Positions 34,031 to 52,373 of a DNA stretch of 64,000 nucleotides are shown here, one piece after another. The stretch lies in assembly GCF_014203365.1 (NCBI RefSeq), contig NZ_JACHIS010000001.1, forward strand, positions 2,480,001-2,544,000, written 5' to 3'. Positions within the stretch are counted from its first letter, which is position 1. Every line of letters begins with the position of its first letter. The position numbers and the translations under genes were made by a program. The notes beneath the pieces were generated by a model. It was not told the DNA's origin and did no database searches. It saw only the letters and a list, made by a program, of their open reading frames with translations. The stretch comes from Actinoalloteichus hymeniacidonis (GTDB lineage Bacteria; Actinomycetota; Actinomycetes; Mycobacteriales; Pseudonocardiaceae).

Positions 34031-36082
34031 CTACGGTTGGTCGACCACAGTCTCGTCCGGATCGTCGTGTGTCAACTCGGCGGGGCGGCGCTTGGGCTTT
34101 GGTTTGAGGACCACATCGGCGCCAGCCGAACTGGCGAAACTCATGCCGCCAGAGATAGTTGCCGCCTGGACGACGTTCCCGACGATATTGCCAGTAGCGT
34201 CGTTGACTATGGTCGACACATGGGGCTGAGTTGCGCCGAGTGCGGGACGGAAGCACGGATGAACACAGAAACTAGACTCGAACGGGCGAATCGAAGTCTC
34301 GATCGTTCCTGCATATACATAATTCTGCCCCCGATGCACGCCGAGGAAGCCAACCGCGTAAAGTAATTCGATAATCGCGTCCGGATCAAAAAATTCAGCG
34401 TACATGTCGTATCTGCTTCGAAAGTAACGCTGAAAAGGCTGGTAGAGTGCGGCGATGGACGTACGGGTCAGTTCGTATCCTGTGTCCCGAAAAACGGTCA
34501 GCAACGAGCTGAGGAACGGAAAGCGAGTACCGTACTCCTTCGCGAGATCGAGTAACTTCCATCGGGAGAACACGAGCGTGGCATCTACCACGTCGGCTGC
34601 CGAGATGTGACGGTGCCCGTTGGCCAGTGCGGTGTCTCGGCACTGGTTGAGGAACTGGATGGCGTCACGCGGGCGCGGTAGCATACGTGTGAACAAGTAG
34701 TCTGCGGTGCGTTCCCCTGCAATCATGGCGGGAAAAATCCCGCCCCACAGGTCTGCGGGCTGCAATCGCTGTCCCAGCGCGATACTAGCCCGAGTGAGAG
34801 CGAGTTGATGCAGCATGCGAACGGTCCAGTCTAGTCGGATCTCGTCGCTGTGAAATTTGTCCGCGTCGCTGAATTCTAGAACATCGTAGATGTCTGAGCG
34901 CAAGAAGAGAACGCAGCGAACCGGGCCCCCGTAAACCAGCGCCGCGTGCTTGCCCGCCAGGAGTAGGCCGATGATGAGCGATTCGCTGTCTGCCTCTCCC
35001 GACCAGATTTGTTCTAACTGATCCACCATCACCAGTAGGGTGCCGTGCTCGTCGGCGCATCCCAGCTCCTCGAATGCCCGCCGTACTCCCGATTCCACCA
35101 CGTCGAGCTGACGGGAAGCCCGAACACCTGCCGGAGTGTTATTGGCGCTGGCTGCCACCTTTACGCCGAATGCCTCCAATGAGAACGATGAGAGTAAACC
35201 GCGGCTCGCGCGAGCGATTCGATGATAGAGACTCTGCTCGGTGATTTCTCCGTTATCCCGCAAGAATCTTTCTAGCGCGCTTACCGAGGCGAGGCGCCGT
35301 CGCCGATGGACCTTGTCGCCAGCGTGTTGCACCACGTGTCTTGCGGCGTGGATGGCGAAGACATACCGCCACAGCAATGCCTTGGCCGATGGCGCAGTCA
35401 ACCCGTCCAGCTCGAATCGGCGGAGTTCCTCGCCGACGGCATCATCTGGCGTGATAAGGCAAGATTTGTTGGGGCCGAGGTTGCTGAGTGCCAGGTGCAT
35501 GCAGATCGCACTTTTACCCGAACCCTTGCGGCCGATGATCAAATTTTTGCGTCCGGTGACGACTTCCGAATAGGCGGTGGTCGGGATGAAACCCTCTCGC
35601 AGCAATCCGTCAGCCATGTCGTGTTCGGCATCGTCGCGACCGAAATACAATCGGTGTACGACCTGTGCTTGGTCGATAGGGGCGGTGCTGCCGTCGCCCG
35701 AAGTCATGCCCAGACCAACCTGCTCGGCGACCCTTGGAGTGCGCGCGCTGTCGGCTGCTGCCCGAAGTGCCGTATTGAGCCGAACGTCGAACCCCGGCAG
35801 ACGGTCGAGCGCTTCCTCGACCGCGAGTTCGGCGCGCAGCCGTGTCCTCGGTGAAACCCGGCCGTCAGTAGCTTCGATAAGTAGCTGCCGAATGGCGGAG
35901 TCCTCGCCCAACGTTGCTGCCACAAGCTCGCCTACCCGTATCGCGGCAGCACTCGGCTCGGTCAGCTGCCGGGCGGCCCACGCCTCCACCAGTTCAACGG
36001 CGTCACGCATGCAGTGCTCCTCCACGATGACCTGACTGGACTCGTTATCGGACTGCTGAACCAGAGTCGAGCTAATAGCCAT
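34031..36082 (-). CDS. P-loop ATPase (Sll1717-like) with C-terminal RHIM-like amyloid motif
   Basis: This 683-residue protein has Walker A NLIIGRKGSGKSAICMHL and Walker B TLLVMVDQLEQIW, and a helical C-terminal half that fits Sll1717-type P-loop ATPases. Near the C terminus (about residues 629-649, nt 34136-34198) it carries GNIVGNVVQAATISGGMSF, which matches the G-x-x-VQA-x-x-I-x-GG pattern of bacterial amyloid signalling (BASS/RHIM-like) motifs. I start at ATG 36082, which has GGAAGAG upstream. Base composition is clearly lower in GC (some lines near 45-55%) than its neighbours, a sign of acquisition by transfer. A role in immunity or programmed death is inferred from the motif and ATPase type. 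Confidence 0.75.
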   Translation of the reverse strand: MAISSTLVQQSDNESSQVIVEEHCMRDAVELVEAWAARQLTEPSAAAIRVGELVAATLGEDSAIRQLLIEATDGRVSPRTRLRAELAVEEALDRLPGFDVRLNTALRAAADSARTPRVAEQVGLGMTSGDGSTAPIDQAQVVHRLYFGRDDAEHDMADGLLREGFIPTTAYSEVVTGRKNLIIGRKGSGKSAICMHLALSNLGPNKSCLITPDDAVGEELRRFELDGLTAPSAKALLWRYVFAIHAARHVVQHAGDKVHRRRRLASVSALERFLRDNGEITEQSLYHRIARASRGLLSSFSLEAFGVKVAASANNTPAGVRASRQLDVVESGVRRAFEELGCADEHGTLLVMVDQLEQIWSGEADSESLIIGLLLAGKHAALVYGGPVRCVLFLRSDIYDVLEFSDADKFHSDEIRLDWTVRMLHQLALTRASIALGQRLQPADLWGGIFPAMIAGERTADYLFTRMLPRPRDAIQFLNQCRDTALANGHRHISAADVVDATLVFSRWKLLDLAKEYGTRFPFLSSLLTVFRDTGYELTRTSIAALYQPFQRYFRSRYDMYAEFFDPDAIIELLYAVGFLGVHRGQNYVYAGTIETSIRPFESSFCVHPCFRPALGATQPHVSTIVNDATGNIVGNVVQAATISGGMSFASSAGADVVLKPKPKRRPAELTHDDPDETVVDQP

Positions 36083-36351
36083 CTGTCTCTTCCGGAAGCT
36101 GGATGTCACTTTACCCGACCGACGGTCTAGGCGGTGGGCGCGGCAGGAAGAAATCCAAGTCGAGGTATTGGGGCGTGCGTGGAATAACGCCGGGCGTGGG
36201 ATGGTGTTTGTTGGCAGTGCAATTTGTTGGTGTAGCGGCGTTTGTTGGTCGTTGTTGTTGATGTGTCCGACTCGTCCACCGTGGGACTCGACACCGAAAC
36301 ACACCGTCGCCGAGCGGTACGCCCGACATCGTCGAGCGTACCGCCGACCGG

Positions 36352-39300
36352 CTACTGCGCCGTGATGCTGAACGGCCTGCGCTGGTGGGTGCGCTGATGG
36401 CCGGGGAACATCGAGATGAAGAACTCCGACCAGCCACCCATCCGAACCCGGAGCAGGTCGTACTTCTCCGGATCGAGGCAGGCCGCGTCGAAGGTCTCCG
36501 GATTCGCGCAGGTCACCGTGAGAAGGTTGGAACCGGCACCGTCGACGAACGCTCGGAGAACCTCTTTGAGCTCATCGAGATCGAAGTCCTCCCGAATGTT
36601 CATGTCTGTGGGTGCGGTGTCCCACAACGCATCCGTACCCGGACCGGACAGGCTCTTCAACACGGTCAGGAGACCAGCCTCTTGGTGATCGACTGCCCGA
36701 TCACCAGGGCTGGGCGCCGCACTCAGATCCGTCGCCAGTGGCTCGCCGGATCGCCTTCCCTCCGCCGACGCGCCTGCCATCGCACCGAACTCCAGGTAAT
36801 TCTCGAAGGTGCCGACTCCCGGCTGCATCTGCACACCGAACGGATGCTCCGCGCTGCCGAATCGGCGGGCGAGTTCGACCATGGTCCGTGCGCTCGGCGC
36901 GGCAGGGTCGGTGAACACCGACAGCACCGTTTCGGAGACCCGTTGCAGGAATTCGTTGCCGAAGGCGTCGATCTCGGCGTTGCCTCGGCCGTACTTCGGG
37001 AGAGCCAGCGCTACCTCGCGAATGTCGCGGAATCGCTCGGCGCGTGCGGCGATCCGCCCTTCACCGGCCAGAACGCTGATGAACGGCTCGACCATGGACT
37101 CGCCCCAGTCGCACATCAACGCCTCGACCAGCTCGGGAAGCGAGGTGACCGCCGTGGTCGGCTCGAATACCAGCTGGCGCACGGCGTACAGCGAATTGAT
37201 GGCGTTCGGCAGCGCCGTGAAACAGGGCGCGAACACGTTGTAGCGGGGGCCGCCCGCGTAGTAGTCCATCCCCTTCTCGACGCAGTCGTCCACGAAGACC
37301 GACAGCAGCGGAGACGGACACACATCGCTGGTCTGCCCGTACAGTCCCAGGGTTCCATCGGCCTGCTTGGCGTACATCCAGAACAGATGCGTGAAGAACA
37401 ACTCCAGCACTTCGTCGAAGGTCGTGATCTCGCTCGGCTTCGGCGAGCTGAACGACACACGCTGGCCTCGGAAGTACATCGGCCCCGCCGTCAGCCACGA
37501 CTTGCCCTGGTTGAGGCTGGCTTCCAGAACCTGAAGCGTGTTGATACCGCCGAGGGTGAACCAGTTCTTTCCGATGAACTGCGGCTCGTAACAGCCGTCG
37601 CAGGCATAGTCACGCGCAACGCTCAATGGAACGTCGCTGCGCCACAACTCGCCTGCCTTCTCCCGCACCGGAGTGAACTCGGTGGGATCTGCGGGACCGT
37701 CGCCGATCTCCTCACCACTACGGATGAGCCCGGGGATGACCTTCTCGTCGTTGATCAGGATCGGATGCGCCCCGCCGCTGATGATCGCCAGGGCTGCTTC
37801 GTCCAGGTATTCCTGGGGCATGTCGGGCCGGACCCGGAGCGACAGACACGGCGCATTGAGCGGGAGCCTGCGGGCGGCGCGTAGACAGAGCATGGTCAAG
37901 CGGTTGTAGGCGGGCTTGCCCGCGCCAGGCTCGTCATCCGCGAGTGTGCCGCCGACGGTGATCTGCTGCACCCATTGATTGTTGGCCGCACCCTGCGGAT
38001 AGGCCCCGCTCGCCCCACCCATCGCCATGTTCCCGGACTGCTGATGGTCGTCGACGAACATGCGGTTCCATAGGACGTTGCCGCCCAGCTTCACCCACAG
38101 GCAGTCGATGACCTCTTGAGCCTGGTCGTCATCGATCAACTCCGCCGCGATATCGCGGTCGTAGAAGGGCTGGAGCAGCTGATCGAGCCTGCCGATCGCG
38201 GTGGGTTCGCCGATGAGGTGCAGGCAGGAATGCAGGGTGAAGATCAGTTGTGCGGCCTCGACGAGGGTGTCCGGCGGTTCGTGGGCGAGCTTGCGCATCC
38301 GTGCTTGAACCTCGGCGAGATTGTGTTGTTCGGCCACCATCGAGTCCGGCAGGTCCGCCGCGTGTTGCTCGGCGAGGTCCGCGAAGGCGAGGCAATGGTC
38401 GCGCACCCCCTCCAACGCCAGCCGGATCGCGAGATAGAACTCGATCTTAGGCTGGTCGCTCGCCACGGACGCCTTGTCGGAGATGTCGGCGAGCAGTCCG
38501 CGCAGGCCCTTGTCCAACAGACGCTGGTAGTCCGGCACGACATGCCCGACGCCGGATGCGGCACTCAGATTCCGGAAATAGTCGCCGAGCTGTTCGTCGG
38601 CTCGCCGGTAGTCGACGACGTATTTGCCCTGGCCGAGACCGAGGGTCGGCATGCCGCCGACGATCAGTTCGAAGGGGTCCAGGTGGTAGGTGTCGGAGCC
38701 GTTGACCCAATTGCCCTGGTCGTCGCGCCTGCGACCCCGGAAGCCGTACTCCTCGGAGGCGAACACCCGACTCAGCCCGAGCTTGACCGACCAACCCATT
38801 CGTTCCATGACCCGGCCGGCCATGATCTCGGCGGCCCGCTGCGCCCCGAGTTCGTGTTCGAGGAGGACCGACAGGTGCGGCGGCTCCGGCTGTACTCGGT
38901 CGAAGTACCAGTTGTCCTGCCAACGGGAGAACGCCTTGGCCAGCAAGCGCAGCACTCGTTTGCTGGGAGGTAGGTAGCGAAGCCGGTCCGCGCCTGCCAT
39001 GGTGCCCATCGTGAACAGGTAATCGCGGTGGTTGTAGTACAGGTACCCGTTCGAGGATCGGCCGGTGAAGTGCCGGTCCAGGCGGTTCCAGTCGACTCCC
39101 GGGAAACGATCCCAGCCGTCTTCGTGCAGCTTGCCGAGCTTCGCCGGTGCCAGTTGCAGGGCGGTCTGGCTCGGGATGAAGTAGAACCCGCCGATATCGG
39201 CGTGCACCGTGTTCAGTAGTCGGTCGGCGACGTAACCGGGTTCCTGACCGAGCTGGCTGGTCATGATCTCCTCGAGCACGCCGACGGCCTTGGCGTAGCC

Positions 39301-40293
39301 AGCGAAGTACACGCCGTGCTCGTCCCGCAGGCTGGCCCCCTTGAGCCGCAGCTCGTTGTTCTTGGTCGCTGTAGAGGTGCCGTAGGGCAGGCCGAGCCGC
39401 AGGATCCGCATCGTGTCGCCCGACTCATCCTGGACCCGGGAACACTTGATGTGGCTGCGGTCGTCCCGGGTGGGCACGATGATGTCCTCGGCGGTCCGAC
39501 CGACGAGATCCTCGATCTGATCCGGTCCCATGTTCAGGATGTGTTCCCAGTTGAACGCGAAACGCTGGGACAGTGCGAAAGACGATCCCGCGTACCAGGG
39601 ATCCTCGTTGCCGACGATCGTGTGACTTTCGATAGTCACGGGGTCGGTCGGGTTGTTGAGATTCTCGGAGAATCGGCAGCCGAGTACCTTGCCACCGAGC
39701 TTGTCGGCACGCACGGATTTCGTCGCGGCCGCCTGGAAGACCGTTCGCGATTCGTCGATACAGTTCTTAGCGGCGAGTAGTCGCGATATCGACTCGTACA
39801 CCGCAGGGCAGTCGTCCTCGCGGTCGGATTTGATGTGGAACCACAGATCGGCCTGCGAATCGGCGAAGGTGCCCTGCGAACGGGCGAACACGTCGGACGT
39901 CGGGTGCGGACCGGTCGACGTGTTCGCCGGGCAGGTGAGTGCCATGCCGCGTGGCAGTTCGAGACCGTCGGTCTCGCAGATCTCCTGCCACAGTCCGAAA
40001 CCGACTCCGAGCACGGCGGTGGTGTTGGCACCCGCGTGATGTTTCTGGATGGCTTCGCCAACCTCGGTGAGTACCTCGGCCAGTACCGACCTGCTGATCT
40101 TCGCGCCCTCCGGTGCGCGCCAGAAGGTAGCGAATAGGGCATACGGGGAGGGGTAGACGAGGCCGGGCTGAACGTGCTGCCAGATCTCGTGGCCTGTCAG
40201 CACATCATCGGGCGGTACCGGGAAGTTGCCGGGCTCCGTTCGCGGTCCGGGTACCTGGCCGGTGGTGGCGATGGTGGTCGAGGAGTCGGTCAC
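36352..40293 (-). CDS. Dyp-type heme peroxidase domain fused to a glycyl-radical enzyme
   Basis: The protein has 1313 residues. Residues about 45-385 match YfeX-type Dyp peroxidases: SQRFAFNWEHI, LVGRTAED, the proximal heme His in RSHIKCSRV (H281), the distal Arg in ILRLGLPYGT (R299), and GGFYFIPS. The catalytic Asp of the GxxDG motif is replaced (GCRFSEN, F208). From about 440 to the end it is a complete glycyl-radical enzyme of the hydratase/lyase class: FELIVGG, GHVVPDYQRLLDKGLRGL, the thiyl Cys in DGCYEPQF (C901, E903), GGPRYN, KYGRGNAEIDAFGNEF, and the radical loop VRMGGWSEFF (G1287) followed by conserved Gln and Arg. It seems monocistronic, with no radical-SAM activase in the window. 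The substrate is unknown. Confidence 0.88.
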   Translation of the reverse strand: MTDSSTTIATTGQVPGPRTEPGNFPVPPDDVLTGHEIWQHVQPGLVYPSPYALFATFWRAPEGAKISRSVLAEVLTEVGEAIQKHHAGANTTAVLGVGFGLWQEICETDGLELPRGMALTCPANTSTGPHPTSDVFARSQGTFADSQADLWFHIKSDREDDCPAVYESISRLLAAKNCIDESRTVFQAAATKSVRADKLGGKVLGCRFSENLNNPTDPVTIESHTIVGNEDPWYAGSSFALSQRFAFNWEHILNMGPDQIEDLVGRTAEDIIVPTRDDRSHIKCSRVQDESGDTMRILRLGLPYGTSTATKNNELRLKGASLRDEHGVYFAGYAKAVGVLEEIMTSQLGQEPGYVADRLLNTVHADIGGFYFIPSQTALQLAPAKLGKLHEDGWDRFPGVDWNRLDRHFTGRSSNGYLYYNHRDYLFTMGTMAGADRLRYLPPSKRVLRLLAKAFSRWQDNWYFDRVQPEPPHLSVLLEHELGAQRAAEIMAGRVMERMGWSVKLGLSRVFASEEYGFRGRRRDDQGNWVNGSDTYHLDPFELIVGGMPTLGLGQGKYVVDYRRADEQLGDYFRNLSAASGVGHVVPDYQRLLDKGLRGLLADISDKASVASDQPKIEFYLAIRLALEGVRDHCLAFADLAEQHAADLPDSMVAEQHNLAEVQARMRKLAHEPPDTLVEAAQLIFTLHSCLHLIGEPTAIGRLDQLLQPFYDRDIAAELIDDDQAQEVIDCLWVKLGGNVLWNRMFVDDHQQSGNMAMGGASGAYPQGAANNQWVQQITVGGTLADDEPGAGKPAYNRLTMLCLRAARRLPLNAPCLSLRVRPDMPQEYLDEAALAIISGGAHPILINDEKVIPGLIRSGEEIGDGPADPTEFTPVREKAGELWRSDVPLSVARDYACDGCYEPQFIGKNWFTLGGINTLQVLEASLNQGKSWLTAGPMYFRGQRVSFSSPKPSEITTFDEVLELFFTHLFWMYAKQADGTLGLYGQTSDVCPSPLLSVFVDDCVEKGMDYYAGGPRYNVFAPCFTALPNAINSLYAVRQLVFEPTTAVTSLPELVEALMCDWGESMVEPFISVLAGEGRIAARAERFRDIREVALALPKYGRGNAEIDAFGNEFLQRVSETVLSVFTDPAAPSARTMVELARRFGSAEHPFGVQMQPGVGTFENYLEFGAMAGASAEGRRSGEPLATDLSAAPSPGDRAVDHQEAGLLTVLKSLSGPGTDALWDTAPTDMNIREDFDLDELKEVLRAFVDGAGSNLLTVTCANPETFDAACLDPEKYDLLRVRMGGWSEFFISMFPGHQRTHQRRPFSITAQ

Positions 40294-41269
40294 TGCGGGC
40301 CTTTCCGTTGTCGCATGACTGTCGACGCCGCGCTTCGGGAACGTCGCGTCGAACCAGGGACGGCCTGGGCCCAGTAAAAAGTGAAGTTTTCACGTATTGT
40401 GGTGAAAGAGTGCGCCATAGCTCGATTCGATGCTGGTGCAGTCCAGCAGGTATCGATTGTCGTCGAAGCGGTATCCGTGCAAGAAGGTGAGAAATGAAAT
40501 ATATTTTTCGATTAGTCGTCTTCACTGATGTGGTTGCCCAGGCGTGAACAAAATAGTGATTGAGCAGCTGTATTTCCATCCCTCGGACGGGTGGGGTTCT
40601 TGAGGAATCCGCCAGCGCGCTGGTATGGGGCGCCGCTGGCCGCCGTGTTCGGCGGGGCCTGGCCACGCGGGCACCCGGGGTGTTCTCGCCAACGGCGTCC
40701 GGCGCGAGCATCGCCCCCGAACCACGGCGACCCGGCCAGTCGCACAGCGGACGGTTCCCCGAGCCTCACTGTCGGTGGCGGCTGCCGAAGAAGATTACCG
40801 AGTCGAGATCTTCGCAGCGGAATACGGGCCGTCCGATCACCGTTGCCAGTCGGTGGATGGGGTTACGCTGGAAGGGCTACTGACATCGTCGTGGAGGTGC
40901 TCGGATACACACATCGACACCTGCATAGTCAGAGACCGTTCTTCCCCGCGCGGTTCGTCCTAGGACGCAGCCGGTGGGGGAGAATTTTTTGCCTTGTGGT
41001 CGGCGTCATCGAGGACGCCATCGCGCCAGCACCCGATCCCCGGTCACCAACCCCGAATGCAACGACGGTGTGCCGTGGATCGGCCGCACGGGGTGGTCGG
41101 CTCCGGCCCATCGGACCGAGCGCCCCGCCGGGCTCAGCCGGCCTCGATCAACCTGCCGGGCCAGCGCCAACGACGGTGAGCAGCCATTCTCGTTCTCACG
41201 CGAGACCTCCCGGTCTCGCCCACATCCTGGGCGCGTGAGCACGACCTACTTTCGTGAGAGGTTCCAGTA
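40294..41269. other. 976-bp region without a convincing gene, upstream of the Dyp-glycyl-radical gene
   Basis: Short frames exist on both strands but none has a ribosome site with protein-like composition. The left part is unusually AT-rich for this genome (GAAATGAAATATATTTTTCG around 40491-40510) and holds a dyad at 40381. It may be the regulatory region of the fusion gene on the left and of the exporter on the right, or the remains of a lost gene. Confidence 0.5.
40381..40393. promoter_or_regulatory. GTGAA-GTT-TTCAC dyad upstream of the fusion gene
   Basis: A perfect 5-bp inverted repeat with a 3-base centre lies 88 bp upstream of the fusion gene ATG; a further half-site GGTGAAA follows at 40401. 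It is a possible operator. Confidence 0.35.
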
Positions 41270-42954: not shown

Positions 42955-44502
42955 CTACACCCGCTCGTCCTTCCGGTCCTGATCGGTGTCCTGCTCGTCG
43001 GACCCGACCGCCGCCTTGGCGGCCCGACGGCGAGCCAAGACCGACTTGAGAATCGGCATCAGGGCCACCACGACGAAGGCGAGGAGCAGCGTCCCGGAGA
43101 TCGGTCGGGTGACGAACCCGGTCGGGTCGCCGTCGAAGATCAGCAGGGAGCGGCGGAGCGAGTCCTCCAGCAACGAGCCGAGCACGAAGGCCAGCACCAG
43201 CGGTCCGGGGTCGAAACCGCACTTCTTCATCAGGTAGCCCAGCGCGCCGAAGACGATCACCAGGATGATGTCGAAGGGGTCGTTGCGCACCGTGTACACG
43301 CCGATCAGGGTGATCAGCACGGTGATGGGCGCCAGGATGGTCGGCCGCACCCGCAGGATCTTCACGAACAGCCCCACCAGCGGGATGCTCATGATCAGCA
43401 GCAGGATGTTGCCGATGTACATCGAGTTGACCACGCCCCAGAACAGCTCGGGCTCCTCGGTGACCAGCCGGGGGCCGGGGCTCACGCCCTGGATCAACAG
43501 CGCGCCGAAGATGACCGCCATCGTGGCGTTCGCGGGGATACCCAGCGACAGCAACGGGATGAACGACGAGGTGGCGGCGGCATTGTTGGCGGTCTCCGGC
43601 GCCGCGACACCCTCCACCGCGCCCTTGCCGAAGCGCTCCGGCTTCTTGGCCCGCCGCTTCTCCAACGCGTAGGCGGCCAGCGAGGAGAGCGTGGCGCCAC
43701 CGCCTGGCAGGATGCCCAGGATGAAGCCGAGGACCGAACCACGTCCGATCGCACCGGAGGACTGTCGCAGGTCGGCCTTCGACGGCCAGACGTTGGCGAT
43801 CTTCGACGGCGGTTTCGAGGCCCGGTGCCGTTCCTCCAGGTTGTAGAGGATCTCGCCGAGTCCGAACAGGCCCATCGCGATGGGCACGAAGTCCAAGCCG
43901 TCGGCCAACGACAGGTTGCCGAAGGTGAAGCGCTCGACGCCGGTGAAGCCGTCGCGGCCGACGGTGGCCAGCAGCAGGCCGACACAGGCGGCGATGACGG
44001 CCTTGATCCGGTTGCCGCCGCCGACCGTGGAGACGAGCAGAATGCCCAGCAGTGCGAGCGCGGTGTACTCGGGCGGCCCGAAGTCCAGGGCGAAGCCGGT
44101 GACCACGGGCGCGAGCAGCGTCAGGCCGAGGATCGAGACGGTGCCGCCGATGAAGGAGCCGATGGCCGCGATGCCCAGCGCGGTGCCCGCCTTGCCCTGG
44201 CGGGCCAGTGCGTGTCCGTCGAAGACGGTGACCACCGAGGACGCCTCGCCGGGTAGCCGCAGCAGCACCGAGGTGATCGTGCCGCCGTACTGGGCGCCGT
44301 AGAAGATGCCCGCCAGCATGATGATCGAGGTGACGGGTTCGATGCCGAAGGTGACCGGCAGCAGGATCGCGATGGTCGCCGCCGGGCCGAGGCCGGGCAG
44401 GACCCCGACCAGCATTCCGACGACCACCCCGATCAGGCAGTACAAGAGGTTGATGGGCTCCAAGACGACAGCGAAGCCGTCCAAGACCGGTGACAGGTCC
44501 AC
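42955..44502 (-). CDS. tctA: Tripartite tricarboxylate transporter, large membrane subunit
   Basis: This 515-residue TctA has the two family signatures, VGVLPGLGPAATIAILLPVT near the N terminus and GILPGGGATLSSLAAYALEKR in the middle, with about twelve hydrophobic segments. It forms the channel of a secondary transporter that takes up carboxylates delivered by the binding protein TctC. It is the last gene of tctC-tctB-tctA. Divergent aldarate dehydratase genes suggest glucarate or galactarate as the cargo rather than citrate. Confidence 0.95.
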   Translation of the reverse strand: MDLSPVLDGFAVVLEPINLLYCLIGVVVGMLVGVLPGLGPAATIAILLPVTFGIEPVTSIIMLAGIFYGAQYGGTITSVLLRLPGEASSVVTVFDGHALARQGKAGTALGIAAIGSFIGGTVSILGLTLLAPVVTGFALDFGPPEYTALALLGILLVSTVGGGNRIKAVIAACVGLLLATVGRDGFTGVERFTFGNLSLADGLDFVPIAMGLFGLGEILYNLEERHRASKPPSKIANVWPSKADLRQSSGAIGRGSVLGFILGILPGGGATLSSLAAYALEKRRAKKPERFGKGAVEGVAAPETANNAAATSSFIPLLSLGIPANATMAVIFGALLIQGVSPGPRLVTEEPELFWGVVNSMYIGNILLLIMSIPLVGLFVKILRVRPTILAPITVLITLIGVYTVRNDPFDIILVIVFGALGYLMKKCGFDPGPLVLAFVLGSLLEDSLRRSLLIFDGDPTGFVTRPISGTLLLAFVVVALMPILKSVLARRRAAKAAVGSDEQDTDQDRKDERV

Positions 44503-44510
44503 GGAACCTC

Positions 44511-45107
44511 CTAGAACAGGTGTGGAATGGGGACGGAGAAGGCGCCCACGAACAGGGCGTAGAAGGCGGCGGTCACGGCGATGCTGGTGATGATCGACGT
44601 GCGCCAGCTCTCGCGTCCCAGGAACCGGAGCCAGACGAAGGTGAGCACGGCGGCCGGGATCTCGAAGCCGACGAGCTCGATGACCGCGACGAACGCGACC
44701 ATCGTGCCCAGCCCCGCCAACACCAGTAGCGCCCGCGTCGAGAACTGTTCCCCGCCGCTGGCCTTACGCGCGGAGGCCAGTAGTGCGACGGCGAGCACGA
44801 CCAGGACGACGCTGACCAACAGCGGCCAGGTGCCGGAGTCGGGGGCGCTCGCGGTGCCGATGCCCAGTGACCAGGAACCCAGCAGCATGGCCACACCGAG
44901 TACCAGGACGGCGGCGGCGGTGACGACGTTGCCGAGGGTGCCGGTCGGCGCAGGCCGGTCCTCGTGTTCGGCTTCCTCCACCGCGACCAGCGCTTCGGCC
45001 AGGCTTGGCTCGGCGGCGGTGGTGTCGGCGGTGCCGGGGGCCGAATCCTTCGAGCCGGCGGCCGGGGTGGCCGCCGACTCGCGTTCCGCGTCGTCTGCGG
45101 ACGTCAC
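44511..45107 (-). CDS. tctB: Tripartite tricarboxylate transporter, small membrane subunit
   Basis: This 198-residue protein has an Ala/Glu-rich cytoplasmic N terminus of about 65 residues and then four hydrophobic segments, as expected for TctB. GTG 45107 overlaps the tctC stop (GTGA), so translation is coupled. It pairs with TctA eight bases downstream. The extended N terminus is longer than in classical TctB. Confidence 0.88.
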   Translation of the reverse strand: MTSADDAERESAATPAAGSKDSAPGTADTTAAEPSLAEALVAVEEAEHEDRPAPTGTLGNVVTAAAVLVLGVAMLLGSWSLGIGTASAPDSGTWPLLVSVVLVVLAVALLASARKASGGEQFSTRALLVLAGLGTMVAFVAVIELVGFEIPAAVLTFVWLRFLGRESWRTSIITSIAVTAAFYALFVGAFSVPIPHLF

Positions 45108-46114
45108 TGCGCACCGCCCATATCGATGTCGAACTCCTCGACCATGCTGCGGTAGGTGTCGAGGTTGGTCGACCACTGCTCACGCAGCTCTTCGCCGTCG
45201 ACCTCGTTCGGGGTGAGTTGGTTGTCGGTGTTGAAGTTCTGGTAGACCTCGGAGTCGAAGACCGTCTGGAACGACTCGCGAAGGGCGTCGATAACCTCCT
45301 GCGGGGTGTCCTTCGGCGCGAAGACCGCCCGCGACTGCTGAACCTCGACGTCGTAGCCCGCCTCCACGGCGGTGGGGGTGTCGGACAGGTAGGTCGGCCG
45401 TTCCCTCGCGAAGGTGACGATCGGCGTGAGCTCACCTGCCTCGATCTGCGCGGCGGCCTCGCCGAGTTGGATCGAGCCGACGTCGACCTGGCCGCCGAGG
45501 ACGGCGGTCAGCGTGGGCGACCCGCCGTCGAAGGGCACGGCGGTGGATTCGATGTCGGCCTGGGCGAACAACGCGGCCTGGGAGAGCTGGCTGCCCGTGC
45601 CCACGCCGGTGGTGCCGTAGGTGATGGACCGGTCGGCCTCGGCGAGGTCGTCGATGGTCTCGAAGCCGGAGTTGGCGGCGGTCACCAGCACGTAGTCGTC
45701 CTGGGACAGCCCGCTGACGATCTCGAAGTCCTCGATGTCGACCGCCTCGCTCTCCGACACTGCGAGCGGGGTGATGTAGGCGAGGCTGCCGTTGAAGATC
45801 ATCAGCGTGTGACCGTCGGCTCGGTCGCCCTCCAGCTGGCGGGCGGCCAGGGTGCCGTTGGCTCCCGGGATGTTCTCCACGGTGATCGCCACGTCGAGGT
45901 CGGCGGTGGCGCCGTCGGCTAACGCGCGGCCGATGAGGTCGGTGCTGCCGCCCGGGTCCTGGCCGACGTAGATGCTGATGGGGTTGCCGTCGGGGAAGTC
46001 CGCGCCGTCGCTGGACCCGCCCCCGAGGTTTCCGCCGCAGGCCGTCATCGAGAGGGTCAGGGCCAGCCCGAGGCCGGTCGCCGCCCGTCGTCGCGTGCCG
46101 ATGCTGGTGGTCAT
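45104..46114 (-). CDS. tctC: Tripartite tricarboxylate transporter, binding lipoprotein (Bug family)
   Basis: This 336-residue extracytoplasmic binding protein has a lipoprotein signal ending LTLSMTACGG. The Bug-family motif NIPGANGTLAARQL and the C-terminal pattern (AVFAPKDTPQEVIDALRESF) are present. ATG 46114 has GAGGAG seven bases upstream; the frame is open for another 256 codons upstream without support. It should capture an aldarate or related carboxylate for TctAB. It heads the transporter operon and diverges from the glucarate dehydratase gene. Confidence 0.93.
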   Translation of the reverse strand: MTTSIGTRRRAATGLGLALTLSMTACGGNLGGGSSDGADFPDGNPISIYVGQDPGGSTDLIGRALADGATADLDVAITVENIPGANGTLAARQLEGDRADGHTLMIFNGSLAYITPLAVSESEAVDIEDFEIVSGLSQDDYVLVTAANSGFETIDDLAEADRSITYGTTGVGTGSQLSQAALFAQADIESTAVPFDGGSPTLTAVLGGQVDVGSIQLGEAAAQIEAGELTPIVTFARERPTYLSDTPTAVEAGYDVEVQQSRAVFAPKDTPQEVIDALRESFQTVFDSEVYQNFNTDNQLTPNEVDGEELREQWSTNLDTYRSMVEEFDIDMGGAQ

Positions 46115-46694
46115 GTCATTTCTCCTCGTCGAGAAGCCAGTCGTCCGGCAACGGGGCGCTGTGAGTGGCATCACGAGCGTCTGGACGGGCGAAGAGTAGG
46201 AACCTGGCGCGATGCCTGTCCAGGACCCATGCAGTATGAATCGATACCTTCGACGCATGGGGCGCGTTGTGCGCCGATCCGACGAGCGTGGGGGAGTCGG
46301 CGTGCTGCGGAGCGGCCGGCTCGGGGGATGGTCATCGATGTCGGTGCGATCTCGTTTTGGTCGATCGACCGAGACCTGTCGAAGGTGTGTAGCCCGTTCG
46401 CGAAACGGGCGCGGATTGCCGCCTCGTCCCGTCGAATCCATTCGATGCCCTGACGGCATCGGTTGATGCGAAAAAGCACCTAGACAGGCATCGCGCGGGA
46501 TTCTTACGGTTGCCGGGCCCGCCCGTGTCCCTTGCGGTGCGCGGCATCGAACACAGGGGGCGGGACACGCTCGCCGAGGCGGCGGACGAGCCCGCCGCAG
46601 GCGCGGATCGATGACGGGACGGCCCGACCAGCCGGCGGCCTCGGCTCCACCCTCGTCGAGGCCCGCGCATTCTCGATGCGAGAGGACGGACAGC
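46115..46694. promoter_or_regulatory. Divergent control region between the transporter and aldarate genes, with paired inverted 18-bp sites
   Basis: No gene is seen in these 580 bp. GCGCGATGCCTGTCCAGG at 46207-46224 recurs in inverted orientation at 46479-46496 (GCGCGATGCCTGTCTAGG on the minus strand, 17 of 18 identical). Each copy lies upstream of one of the two divergent genes and in the same orientation relative to it. This fits two operators for a shared regulator, possibly with looping. No regulator gene is adjacent. Confidence 0.6.
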
Positions 46695-48029
46695 ATGACC
46701 GGTCTAAGCCCCACCGTGGCACGTATCGAGGTGGTGCCCGTAGCGGGCCACGACAGCATGCTGTTGAACCTGAGCGGCGCCCATGGGCCGTTCTTCACCC
46801 GCAACATCGCGATCGTCACCGACAGCGAGGGCCGGGTCGGGGTCGGCGAGGTACCGGGCGGGGACGCGATCCGGCAGACCATCCAGGATGCGGGCGAGCT
46901 GCTGATCGGCAGACCCGTCGCCCGCTATGGCAGCTTGCTGCGTTCGGTCGCGGATGCCTTCGCGGGCCGCGACGCCGGAGGTCGGGGCCAGCAGACCTTC
47001 GATCTGCGGACCACGGTGCATGCGGTGACCGCCCTGGAGTCGTGCCTGCTGGACCTGTTCGGCCAGTACCTCGGTGTCCCGGTGGCCGAACTGCTCGGCG
47101 ATGGGCAGCAGCGCGACGCGGTCCCGATGCTCGGCTACCTCTTCTACGTGGGCGACCGGCGGGCCGCCGCCGAACTGCCGTATGTCGCCGAGTCGAATCC
47201 GGCCGACGACTGGGAGCGGCTGCGGCGCGAACCCGCCCTGACACCCGAGGCGGTGGTGGCGCTGGCCGAGGCCGCGCAGGCCCGCTACGGCTTCACGGAC
47301 TTCAAGCTCAAGGGCGGTGTGCTGCCCGGCGCGCAGGAGATCGAGGCGGTTCGTGCGTTGGCCGCGCGTTTCCCCGACGCCAGGATCACCCTGGATCCCA
47401 ACGGCGGCTGGCTGCTGGCCGATGCCATCGAACTGTGTCGTGACCTGCACGGGGTACTGGCCTACGCCGAGGACCCGGTCGGCGGCGAGAACGGCTTCTC
47501 CGGCCGCGAGACCATGGCGGAGTTCCGCCGGGCCACCGGCCTGCCCACGGCGACGAACATGATCGCCACCGACTGGCGGCAGCTGGCGCACGCCGTGCGG
47601 GCGGCGGCGGTCGACATCCCGTTGGCCGACCCGCACTTCTGGACGATGCGCGGCTCGGTTCGCGTCGCGCAGCTGTGCGCGGACTTCGGTCTCACCTGGG
47701 GTTCGCACTCCAACAACCACTTCGACATCTCGCTCGCGATGTTTACCCAGGTCGGTGCGGCCGCTCCCGGGACGATCACGGCGCTGGACACGCACTGGAT
47801 CTGGCAGGACGGCCAGGCGTTGACGCGCGAGCCTTTGCAGATCCGCGACGGGCGGATCGCCGTGCCGACGGCCCCGGGGCTCGGAGTGGAGCTCGACCGC
47901 GACGCCCTCGCCGCTGCCCACGAGCTGTATCGGGAACACGGCCTCGGTGCGCGTGACGACGCCGTCGCGATGCAGTACCTCGTGCCCGACTGGCAGTTCG
48001 ACGCCAAGCGTCCCTGCCTGGACCGCTGA
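46695..48029 (+). CDS. gudD: D-glucarate dehydratase
   Basis: This 444-residue enolase-superfamily protein matches glucarate dehydratase in length and in the acid/base residues: FKLKGGV (K-x-K), [31 protein letters not shown] and the His in [23 protein letters not shown]. It removes water from D-glucarate (and L-idarate) to give 5-keto-4-deoxyglucarate. ATG 46695 is used. It is the first gene of a plus-strand operon that diverges from the uptake system. Confidence 0.93.
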
Positions 48030-50753: not shown

Positions 50754-52172
50754 ATGGACCCCGACGTTCTGCGTCGTCTGCACGACATCCTCGGACCGGC
50801 CGGTGTGGTCGCCGATCCCGACCTGCTACGGGGGTATCTGTCCGACTGGCGAGGCGCCTACCAGGGCACGGCTGCGGTGGTGGCCCGGCCCGCCGACACC
50901 GGACAGGTCGCCGAGATCCTCGGGCTCTGCCATCGCCGGGGCGTGGCGGTCGTTCCGCAGGGCGGCAACACCGGGTTATGCGGGGGAGCGGTGCCCGACC
51001 GCTCCGGGACCCAGCTCGTGCTGTCCACGAACCGGTTGCGGCGTATTCGGGGAGTCGACCGTGCCGACCAGACGATCACCGTCGAGGCAGGGGTGGTCCT
51101 GCAGACCGTGCAGGAAGCCGCCGACGCCGCCGGACTGCTGTTCCCGCTCTCGCTGGGCGCGGAGGGCAGCTGCACCATCGGCGGCAACCTCGCGACCAAC
51201 GCGGGCGGCACCGCCGTGGTCCGCTACGGGACGATGCGCGAGCTCACCCTCGGCGTGGAGGTGGTGCTGCCGGACGGTCGGATCTGGAACGGCCTGCGTG
51301 GCCTGCGCAAGGACAACACCGGATACGATCTCAAACAGCTGTTCATCGGCTCGGAGGGCACCCTCGGCGTGATCACCGCCGCCGTGCTGGCCCTTCATCC
51401 GGCGATTCGTAGCCGTGCCACCGCGTGGGTCGCGCTCTCCGACCCGCAGGCGGCGGTGGACCTCATCGAGATCGTGCGCGCCACCGCCGGATCGCGGCTG
51501 TCGGGTTTCGAACTGATGTCCGCGCAGAGCGTGGAATTCGTGTTGCGCCATGTGTCGGGCACCCGTGATCCCTTCGGGTCTGCGCACCCGTGGTTCGCGC
51601 TCCTGGAACTCAGCGATCCGATGGCGGACGCGCCGCTGGCGCAGACCCTGGAGACGGTGTTGGGCGAGGCCTTCGAACGCGAGCTGCTCCGGGACGCCGT
51701 CGTCGCCGACGGTTCCACACAGGTCGCGGCGCTGTGGGCACTGCGCGAGGGAATCTCGGAGGCGCAGAACCACGAGGGACCCAGCCTCAAACACGACATC
51801 ACGGTGCCGATCAGTGTCATTCCGGCCTTCGTCGCCGCCACCGACGACGCGCTGCGGGCGACGATGCCCGGCATTCGCATCGTGACCTACGGCCATGTCG
51901 GCGACGGGAATCTGCACTACAACCTGAGCAAACCACCGGGGACGGACGACGAGGTGTTCCGCAGCAGAGCAGCGGAGCTGGCCCGCGTCGTCTACGACTC
52001 GACGGCCGGGTTCGCGGGCAGCATCAGTGCCGAACACGGGCTGGGCCAGTCGAAACGCGAAGTGATCGCGGACTACAAGCCTGCGGTGGAGCTCGACCTG
52101 ATGCGCGGGATCAAGCAGCTGTTCGACCCGGCGGGACTGATGAATCCGGGCAAGGTACTGCCGGAAGGATGA
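50754..52172 (+). CDS. FAD-linked 2-hydroxyacid oxidase (GlcD/D-2-hydroxyglutarate dehydrogenase family)
   Basis: This 472-residue VAO-type flavoprotein has FAD contacts VPQGGNTGLCGGAVPD, the run EGSCTIGGNLATNAGG and the region GYDLKQLFIGSEGTLGVIT, and catalytic-site motifs YGHVGDGNLHYN and SAEHGLGQSKREVI. The family oxidises D-2-hydroxy acids (lactate, glycolate, 2-hydroxyglutarate). It starts 11 bp after mqo and ends the operon. A role in handling a hydroxy-acid by-product of aldarate breakdown is inferred. A 201-bp gap without a gene follows. Confidence 0.88.
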   Translation: MDPDVLRRLHDILGPAGVVADPDLLRGYLSDWRGAYQGTAAVVARPADTGQVAEILGLCHRRGVAVVPQGGNTGLCGGAVPDRSGTQLVLSTNRLRRIRGVDRADQTITVEAGVVLQTVQEAADAAGLLFPLSLGAEGSCTIGGNLATNAGGTAVVRYGTMRELTLGVEVVLPDGRIWNGLRGLRKDNTGYDLKQLFIGSEGTLGVITAAVLALHPAIRSRATAWVALSDPQAAVDLIEIVRATAGSRLSGFELMSAQSVEFVLRHVSGTRDPFGSAHPWFALLELSDPMADAPLAQTLETVLGEAFERELLRDAVVADGSTQVAALWALREGISEAQNHEGPSLKHDITVPISVIPAFVAATDDALRATMPGIRIVTYGHVGDGNLHYNLSKPPGTDDEVFRSRAAELARVVYDSTAGFAGSISAEHGLGQSKREVIADYKPAVELDLMRGIKQLFDPAGLMNPGKVLPEG

Positions 52173-52373
52173 CCGCGAACTACGCGGTTTCCTCGGTCGC
52201 GGTCGGTCTGCGGGCGCGGTGGGTGTAGCGCGAGCACAACTTGTTTCCGTGTCAATCAGATCGCTGTTGCGTCTCGTTCCCGGGGTTGTGGGAACCCCGG
52301 GACGTCGACTCGGCTCTAATGCGCGCATGGTGGCCGCACCGGGGCGACGTGCCGTTGAACGACTGGGGAGTCC

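Follow-up and report, generated by a model that had tools for sequence, protein, structure and literature searches.

In Actinoalloteichus hymeniacidonis, a glycyl-radical enzyme (GRE) is encoded in one frame with a heme peroxidase domain of the DyP (dye-decolourising peroxidase) type, on the minus strand of a 64,000-nucleotide stretch of contig NZ_JACHIS010000001.1 (positions 2,480,001 to 2,544,000; the window below). The fusion is real and is one intact gene. In textbooks GREs belong to anaerobic life and are paired with radical S-adenosylmethionine (SAM) activases, and the fusion makes the start of a glycyl or thiyl radical by heme and peroxide testable. Our tentative proposal, to which we give slightly less than an even chance, is that the DyP domain has taken over from the radical-SAM activase and uses peroxide to start the radical, yielding an aerobic GRE. 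The broader possibility that heme peroxidases displaced the activase at least twice within one GRE clade, once as a B-type DyP and once as another DyP type, to give peroxide-activated GREs working in air, is held with somewhat less confidence.

One intact gene for a heme peroxidase and a glycyl-radical enzyme

The open frame begins with GTG and runs for 1313 codons without an internal stop. A sequence-only reading of the window had described a single 1313-residue frame joining a DyP to a complete GRE, which is borne out; it gave no strand, which is minus, and H281, R299, C901, E903 and G1287 stand at the positions it assigned. An A/G-rich box like the one listed below precedes the fusion start in all four relatives aligned, and a sigma-70 promoter scan upstream of the gene found none. 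The features are:

36352..40293, minus: DyP-GRE fusion gene (open frame, GTG start, 1313 amino acids; full-length relatives)
40300..40306, minus: GGAAAGG, ribosome-binding-like box by its sequence, 6 bases upstream of the GTG start
39157..40167, minus: DyP-type heme peroxidase domain, residues 43-379 (TIGR01413, PF20628; AlphaFold model matches DtpB, DypB and TyrA)
39664..39666, minus: E210, Glu in place of the Asp of DypB FVDGTENP, here FSENLNNP (phmmer alignment with DypB; 28 of 28)
39451..39453, minus: H281, aligned with a DypB His (phmmer alignment; 28 of 28)
39397..39399, minus: R299, aligned with a DypB Arg (phmmer alignment; 28 of 28)
38578..39138, minus: conserved joining region, residues 386-572, with invariant Trp, Tyr and His (alignment)
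36925..38577, minus: pyruvate formate-lyase (PFL)-like GRE core, residues 573-1123 (PF02901 over cut-off, E 1.5e-105; model matches 5i2g)
37585..37593, minus: C901-Y902-E903, catalytic Cys-x-Glu loop (aligned with Cys-Val-Glu of glycerol dehydratase; 28 of 28)
36433..36435, minus: G1287 of the RVRMGGWSEFF stretch, candidate site of the glycyl radical (RMGGWS lines up with RVAGYS in glycerol dehydratase; 28 of 28)

The same layout is found in 33 loci from five phyla: Actinomycetota, Cyanobacteria, Chloroflexota (a metagenome-assembled genome), Pseudomonadota and Bacteroidota. These comprise the window, full-length copies in two genomes of the same genus (G001 and G002; 77 and 79% identity), a plasmid of Asticcacaulis (42% identity) and 29 loci from a pattern scan, one of which, L035, is the full-length copy in genome G025 of the same family (72%). 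The scan employed two peptide patterns on one genome per species across 84,980 species, so that 29 loci are a lower bound. All 29 carry both domains, and the match is open throughout in 28; the Saccharopolyspora spinosa copy (L057:10001-13826) has a frame break with four stops in the match frame. The sequence-only reading had set an assembly join or frameshift at the domain joint among the findings that would overturn it. Such a join was considered and is excluded, because full-length relatives exist in other genomes and all 29 scan loci cross the junction.

Eleven positions named here do not vary among the 28 aligned sequences: E210, H281, R299, H584, E696, C901, Y902, E903, G1286, G1287 and W1288. 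The alignment leaves out L057 for its frame break and L049, L056, L059 and L061 as near kin of retained rows; L004 and L035 are one gene. That the protein is an artefact or a decayed remnant has a negligible probability and, taken over the whole family, is refuted: the broken Saccharopolyspora copy and a Hymenobacter plasmid, where GRE and DyP are both frame-split, would fit it, but 28 of 29 scan loci are intact and the active-site columns do not vary across five phyla.

Copies are found in named sequenced genera including Pedobacter, Actinoalloteichus and Acinetobacter. A search of 100 genomes, its own included, gave any match in 30, mostly DyP alone or PflB. Further distribution searches covered 345 Bacteroidota, 398 Pseudomonadota, 346 Actinomycetota, 194 Cyanobacteria, 246 genomes of one Bacteroidota order and 251 Chloroflexota, with strict E-value limits (1e-10 to 1e-40) in all except the 345 Bacteroidota. 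Because they added only two DyP-linked members, G405 and G719, the fusion has a broad but thin distribution in these samples. C-terminal-only matches in eight relatives were considered as stand-alone cousins and rejected, as they end in RVSGYAVNF or RVSGYAVHF, endings that we take to mark ordinary PflB.

In the N-terminal part, NCBIfam Dyp_perox_fam (TIGR01413) matches residues 43-379 with 120.3 bits against a cut-off of 100.5, and Pfam Dyp_perox_C (PF20628) is over its cut-off at residues 213-376. The N-terminal DyP profile PF04261, which had been named as a mark of the fusion, is not reported on it at E<=0.01. An AlphaFold model of residues 1-392 (predicted TM score, pTM, 0.79; mean per-residue confidence, pLDDT, 71) retrieves DtpB, TyrA and DypB with Foldseek, the best match being 7zmj (E 1.8e-18, TM 0.75 on the target). 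The DypB His aligned with H281 is presumably the proximal heme ligand, and we take the DypB Arg aligned with R299 to be the distal Arg.

The model of residues 385-1313 (pTM 0.84, mean pLDDT 77) resembles 1,2-propanediol dehydratase (5i2g, E 6.6e-34, TM 0.74 on the target), glycerol dehydratase and CutC. Each model drew on the window sequence together with 25 relatives; L045 and L021 were left out of the structure alignments. PF01228, also named beforehand, gives a divided result: it does not match at E<=0.001 in the window's own genome but is over cut-off on the fusion's C-terminus in eight of 33 host genomes. Taking H164, H281, S282 and D447 of glycerol dehydratase as its pocket residues, H164 is kept (H584), H281/S282 align with E696/P697 of the fusion and D447 aligns with T913, a position holding Ser or Thr in 26 of 28 sequences and Ala or His in two. 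Because E696/P697 replace H281/S282 and the D447 position is mostly Ser/Thr, a plain glycerol-type dehydratase appears unlikely.

The region between the two parts (residues 386-572) is itself conserved, with W394, W402, H408, Y420, H422, W458, W462, W501, Y558 and Y562 invariant. At the joint (386-470), 26% of positions are invariant in the 28 sequences; for the DyP part (43-385) the figure is 15%, for the PFL core 23%. Among the residues of the window protein, 11 of 22 Trp, 9 of 38 Tyr and 49 of 115 Gly are invariant, several of the Trp lying in the joining region.

Activases in the hosts and among related enzymes

The sequence-only reading had seen no activase in the window, and this holds for the whole genome as far as profile models see: searches with TIGR02494 and PF13353 find no GRE activase over cut-off. 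Three radical-SAM matches came from the searches of this genome: an AmmeMemoRadiSam enzyme at 293 bits (cut-off 220), MoaA at 373 bits (cut-off 284) and, short of the cut-off in the 25 of 37 families shown, a SPASM-like protein. On 33 host genomes (32 distinct, as G025 is also G101), the GRE-activase subfamily model TIGR02494 was run with E. coli among the positive controls. It is over cut-off in three hosts, Shewanella abyssi, Chromobacterium alticapitis and Actinophytocola oryzae, and each of these activases lies immediately next to a canonical GRE that PF01228 picks out (G103 C17, G108 C32, G121 C157). PF13353 is unspecific, with matches in all 33 hosts, and exceeds 50 bits in six, where the proteins are of the NrdG kind or are the same activases. 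Neither TIGR02494 over cut-off nor PF13353 above 50 bits is found in 27 of the 33. Most fusion hosts are, we assume, strict aerobes, with Shewanella and Chromobacterium facultative.

Relatives of the GRE half come with different partners. A search of the 345 Bacteroidota genomes with this half yielded three divergent relatives of note. In two of them, G249 and G366, the GRE stands alone, reads GCWEP and RVGGW or RIGGW, and has as its neighbour an activase that passes the TIGR02494 cut-off (184 and 185 bits). The remaining one, G405, is a fusion of 1304 residues to another DyP type (PF21105 DyP_N over cut-off; GFRDGISNP, AHIRK), and its genome has no activase over cut-off, the best match (26 bits) being an RlmN. 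A more divergent DyP-GRE fusion, G719, occurs among the 398 Pseudomonadota, again in a genome with no activase over cut-off (best match 37 bits, an AmmeMemoRadiSam enzyme). Chloroflexota contain four stand-alone GREs with RVRMGGW, of which those of G1732 and G1804 adjoin an activase over the TIGR02494 cut-off (323 and 305 bits); the Cys loop of these two (L131, L132) reads NSNCWE, not DGCWE. The activase-linked sisters have no DyP domain in the same protein, and a six-frame motif read around G249, G366, G1732 and G1804, whose genomes were not searched for DyPs, gave no DyP motif except one EGPENP string. On the Hymenobacter plasmid, a GRE gene is followed by a separate DyP gene (L022:11590-15420), and no activase is annotated within the 26-kb stretch covered. 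Both genes are frame-split in the record, through sequencing error or decay. Cys-Trp-Glu is found in all seven stand-alone rows and in G405, and Cys-Tyr-Glu in exactly the branch of the window-type fusions, G719 and Hymenobacter.

A GRE tree of 33 rows, drawn with a midpoint root, places the fusions in a 'GGW' clade of 20 rows (support 100/100); for the Hymenobacter GRE, as for its DyP in the DyP tree, the N-terminal piece only was used. The stand-alone Chloroflexota rows fall outside a set of 15 rows (100/99). Within this set, G405 joins the activase-linked G249 and G366 (100/100), and Hymenobacter, G719 and all window-type rows share one branch (100/100). The DyP and activase labels need two changes each, forced by well-supported branches, with 10 rows bearing neither label. 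In the DyP tree, the window-type and G719 domains form a single clade (100/99); those of G405 and Hymenobacter are placed close to EfeB, a position that long branches make unsure. Clade members have either a DyP and no free activase or, in four of the seven stand-alone GREs, an adjacent activase, a pattern pointing to at least one swap of partner and probably two.

How the radical may be started

Heme-peroxidase compound I can generate Tyr and Trp radicals. In the proposed mechanism, peroxide would oxidise the DyP heme to compound I, and the oxidising equivalent would pass through the invariant Trp and Tyr residues to Cys901 by proton-coupled electron transfer, much as in class I ribonucleotide reductase. 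Because Cys thiyl and Gly radicals exchange in GREs, oxidation of Cys901 through the aromatics would charge Gly1287 without radical SAM. The thiyl radical would be parked on Gly1287 and fetched back at each turnover, and the barrel would then carry out the usual GRE reactions (dehydration, or cleavage of C-X or C-C bonds) on a small substrate. That the heme domain starts the radical had been suggested as one possibility by the sequence-only reading, and the phylogeny, with activase-linked sisters and with DyP-linked members that have no free activase, speaks for it; starting and protecting the radical are, however, inseparable by sequence.

The layout itself had been thought undescribed, but the available part of Zamocky et al. 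2016 (PMC5041501) lists a 'Dyp_B peroxidase (fusion w. PFL)' in Chaetomium cochliodes and, citing Strittmatter 2014, mentions the DyP-PFL fusion in other prokaryotes and eukaryotes. There its significance is called elusive, the fungal fusion genes are derived from bacteria by transfer, and the Chaetomium transcript is reported to rise 3-fold with H2O2 and 18.5-fold with peroxyacetic acid. The terms 'formate' and 'glycyl' do not occur in the available part of PMC4420034. Among the open-licence PMC papers listed, only PMC5041501 was found to treat the fusion, and no characterised DyP-GRE fusion enzyme was found. Judged by those papers the layout is already published, and what seems new is that bacterial hosts lack the activase, that sister enzymes are linked to one and that a second type of DyP occurs.

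It is generally known that classical GREs are destroyed by O2 and that DyPs consume H2O2. The heme domain might only remove peroxide and other oxidants near a radical that is made otherwise, by an unrecognised or shared radical-SAM enzyme or during spells of low oxygen. Radical-SAM enzymes of other families do occur in the window's genome, the AmmeMemoRadiSam enzyme for example, and a fungal activase is postulated, and a peroxide induction that fits defence is described, in the portion of PMC5041501 at hand. On the other side, 30 of the 33 hosts have no GRE activase over cut-off and in the other three it adjoins another GRE, so that protection alone leaves unexplained why the activase is missing where the DyP is present. 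The activase-linked sisters moreover do without a DyP in the same protein (separate DyPs elsewhere in their genomes were outside the search), and O2 is not removed by a peroxidase. We regard this account as unlikely, although it is the strongest of the rivals.

A less probable alternative dispenses with the stored glycyl radical, compound I oxidising Cys901 or the substrate in each cycle to make a peroxide-dependent oxidase or lyase in a GRE fold. It would agree with the retained His and Arg of the DyP, with pocket residues unlike those of glycerol dehydratase and with the Tyr that follows the Cys in the window type, G719 and Hymenobacter, where the seven stand-alone rows have Trp. However, G1286, G1287 and W1288 are as invariant as the Cys in the 28 sequences, whereas a dispensable radical store should drift, and the DyP-fused G405 retains Trp at that place.

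It is slightly more doubtful still that the protein is a bifunctional pathway enzyme whose domains act in succession on one metabolite with no radical exchanged. Both active sites are intact, and Hymenobacter has the two as separate neighbouring genes, which is frequent for pathway partners. But a DyP is, from general knowledge, a broad one-electron oxidant and not a committed metabolic step, and such a scheme would explain neither two DyP types with one GRE clade nor the missing free activase.

Several observations weigh against a start of the radical by the DyP. The GxxDG motif with its distal Asp is absent, SENLNNP standing in its place with Glu210-Asn211 invariant in the 28 sequences; the divergent fusion G719 retains the motif Asp (RFRDAMINP). 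The N-terminus can be described as DyP-like by its fold and its His and Arg, and as a candidate for full DyP membership. Residues 193-216 and 257-287, around the heme-site residues, and the Gly loop of the GRE model have pLDDT values below 50, and therefore no geometry is read there. Six of the 33 hosts (G102, G103, G104, G108, G120, G121) encode either a GRE activase or a protein with a strong match of the NrdG kind; for the strong PF13353 protein of G102, G104 and G120 no PF01228 partner was found, and Shewanella abyssi has a second activase-like protein below the cut-off (130.7 bits). An adjacent activase is found in only four of the seven stand-alone clade members: there is none in 11-12 kb around each of the two stand-alone RVRMGGW GREs of G1780 (L130, L138), nor in the short flanks of G1739, the seventh stand-alone row (RVSGW). 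The starred branches of the DyP tree force only one change, so a single origin of the GRE-linked DyPs is compatible with them. GGW was tried as a mark of DyP activation and abandoned because the activase-linked sisters share it. Finally, a separate radical-SAM protein or putative fungal PFL activase is proposed for the Chaetomium fusion in the available part of PMC5041501.

An activase-like match in Trinickia (73.6 bits; G107 C7 near 51778-52228, L066/L152), also to be counted on that side, was set aside as a PflA-like remnant because no CxxxCxxC occurs within 2.5 kb upstream in any frame. The same genome carries the fusion.

Gene surroundings and comparison with known systems

A conserved operon was looked for and rejected, the largest clusters of neighbours covering at most six of 34 loci apart from frames that overlap the fusion. 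In the window, an open reading frame (ORF) of 757 amino acids (34031-36304, minus) starts 47 bases after the fusion; it has a sub-threshold match to nSTAND1, a STAND NTPase (22.2 bits against 27.1), and BLAST matches it nowhere in the 33 other loci compared. Tripartite tricarboxylate transporter genes with TctA, TctB and TctC matches lie nearby (42955-46882, minus), as does an ORF whose residues 403-551 match cytochrome P450 (32035-33795, plus). Elsewhere, a 5'-nucleotidase stands beside the fusion in Marinomonas, Hahella and Anabaena (L052, L054, L036), with an S1/P1 nuclease on the fusion's other side in Marinomonas and Hahella. PLD-like neighbours occur in the Chloroflexi metagenome-assembled genome and in Hymenobacter, and phosphoesterase-type neighbours recur weakly overall. 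Four HAD-like neighbours compared show no mutual resemblance. Because this recurrence is weak and the four HAD-like neighbours are unlike one another, no substrate is drawn from the neighbours. An FGE/SUMF1-like gene lies upstream of two different fusions, directly in Asticcacaulis (L021:13855-14859) and one gene away in G405 (L092:2799-3758), in both cases next to a DUF2278 or XendoU endoribonuclease gene. Three Acinetobacter genomes (L044, L045, L059) have the fusion at the same place, just before clpB, the ClpB profile being over cut-off in L044.

With the B-type DyPs, namely DypB of R. jostii, DtpB of S. lividans and YfeX, the fusion has in common the fold and the heme-site His and Arg. 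It differs from them in the Glu that replaces the FVDG Asp, in the attached GRE and in forming its own clade in the DyP tree. The GREs of the glycerol and 1,2-propanediol dehydratase type (1r8w, 5i2g, CutC, YbiW, PflD) share Cys-x-Glu, the Gly loop and, by model, the fold (TM up to 0.74-0.75 on the target). Identity to them in fold alignments is only about 20%, and the fusion departs from them in its DyP, in GGW for GY, in E696/P697 and in the mostly Ser/Thr position 913, as well as in a genome without a detected activase. The stand-alone GGW GREs of Bacteroidota (G249, G366) and Chloroflexota (G1732, G1804) belong to the same clade and share the R-x-G-G-W Gly loop; unlike the fusion, they have an activase beside the gene, Cys-Trp-Glu and no DyP in the protein. 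The Chaetomium fusion, likened by its description in the available part of PMC5041501, has an N-terminal type-B DyP and a C-terminal PFL/glycyl-radical domain as here. A separate activase is proposed for it, whereas 30 of the 33 bacterial hosts have none over cut-off.

If the DyP does start the radical, it would be an added route beside radical SAM and, in related reductases, O2/metal and B12, and GRE chemistry (C-O, C-N, C-S and C-C cleavage) could be opened to use in air. The arrangement would be a counterpart to the division of ribonucleotide reductases into anaerobic and aerobic kinds. The class I enzyme, an analogy from general knowledge, likewise sends a radical from an O2-derived oxidant via aromatic residues to the Cys of a ten-stranded barrel, but relies on a di-metal/Tyr centre in place of heme and stores no glycyl radical.

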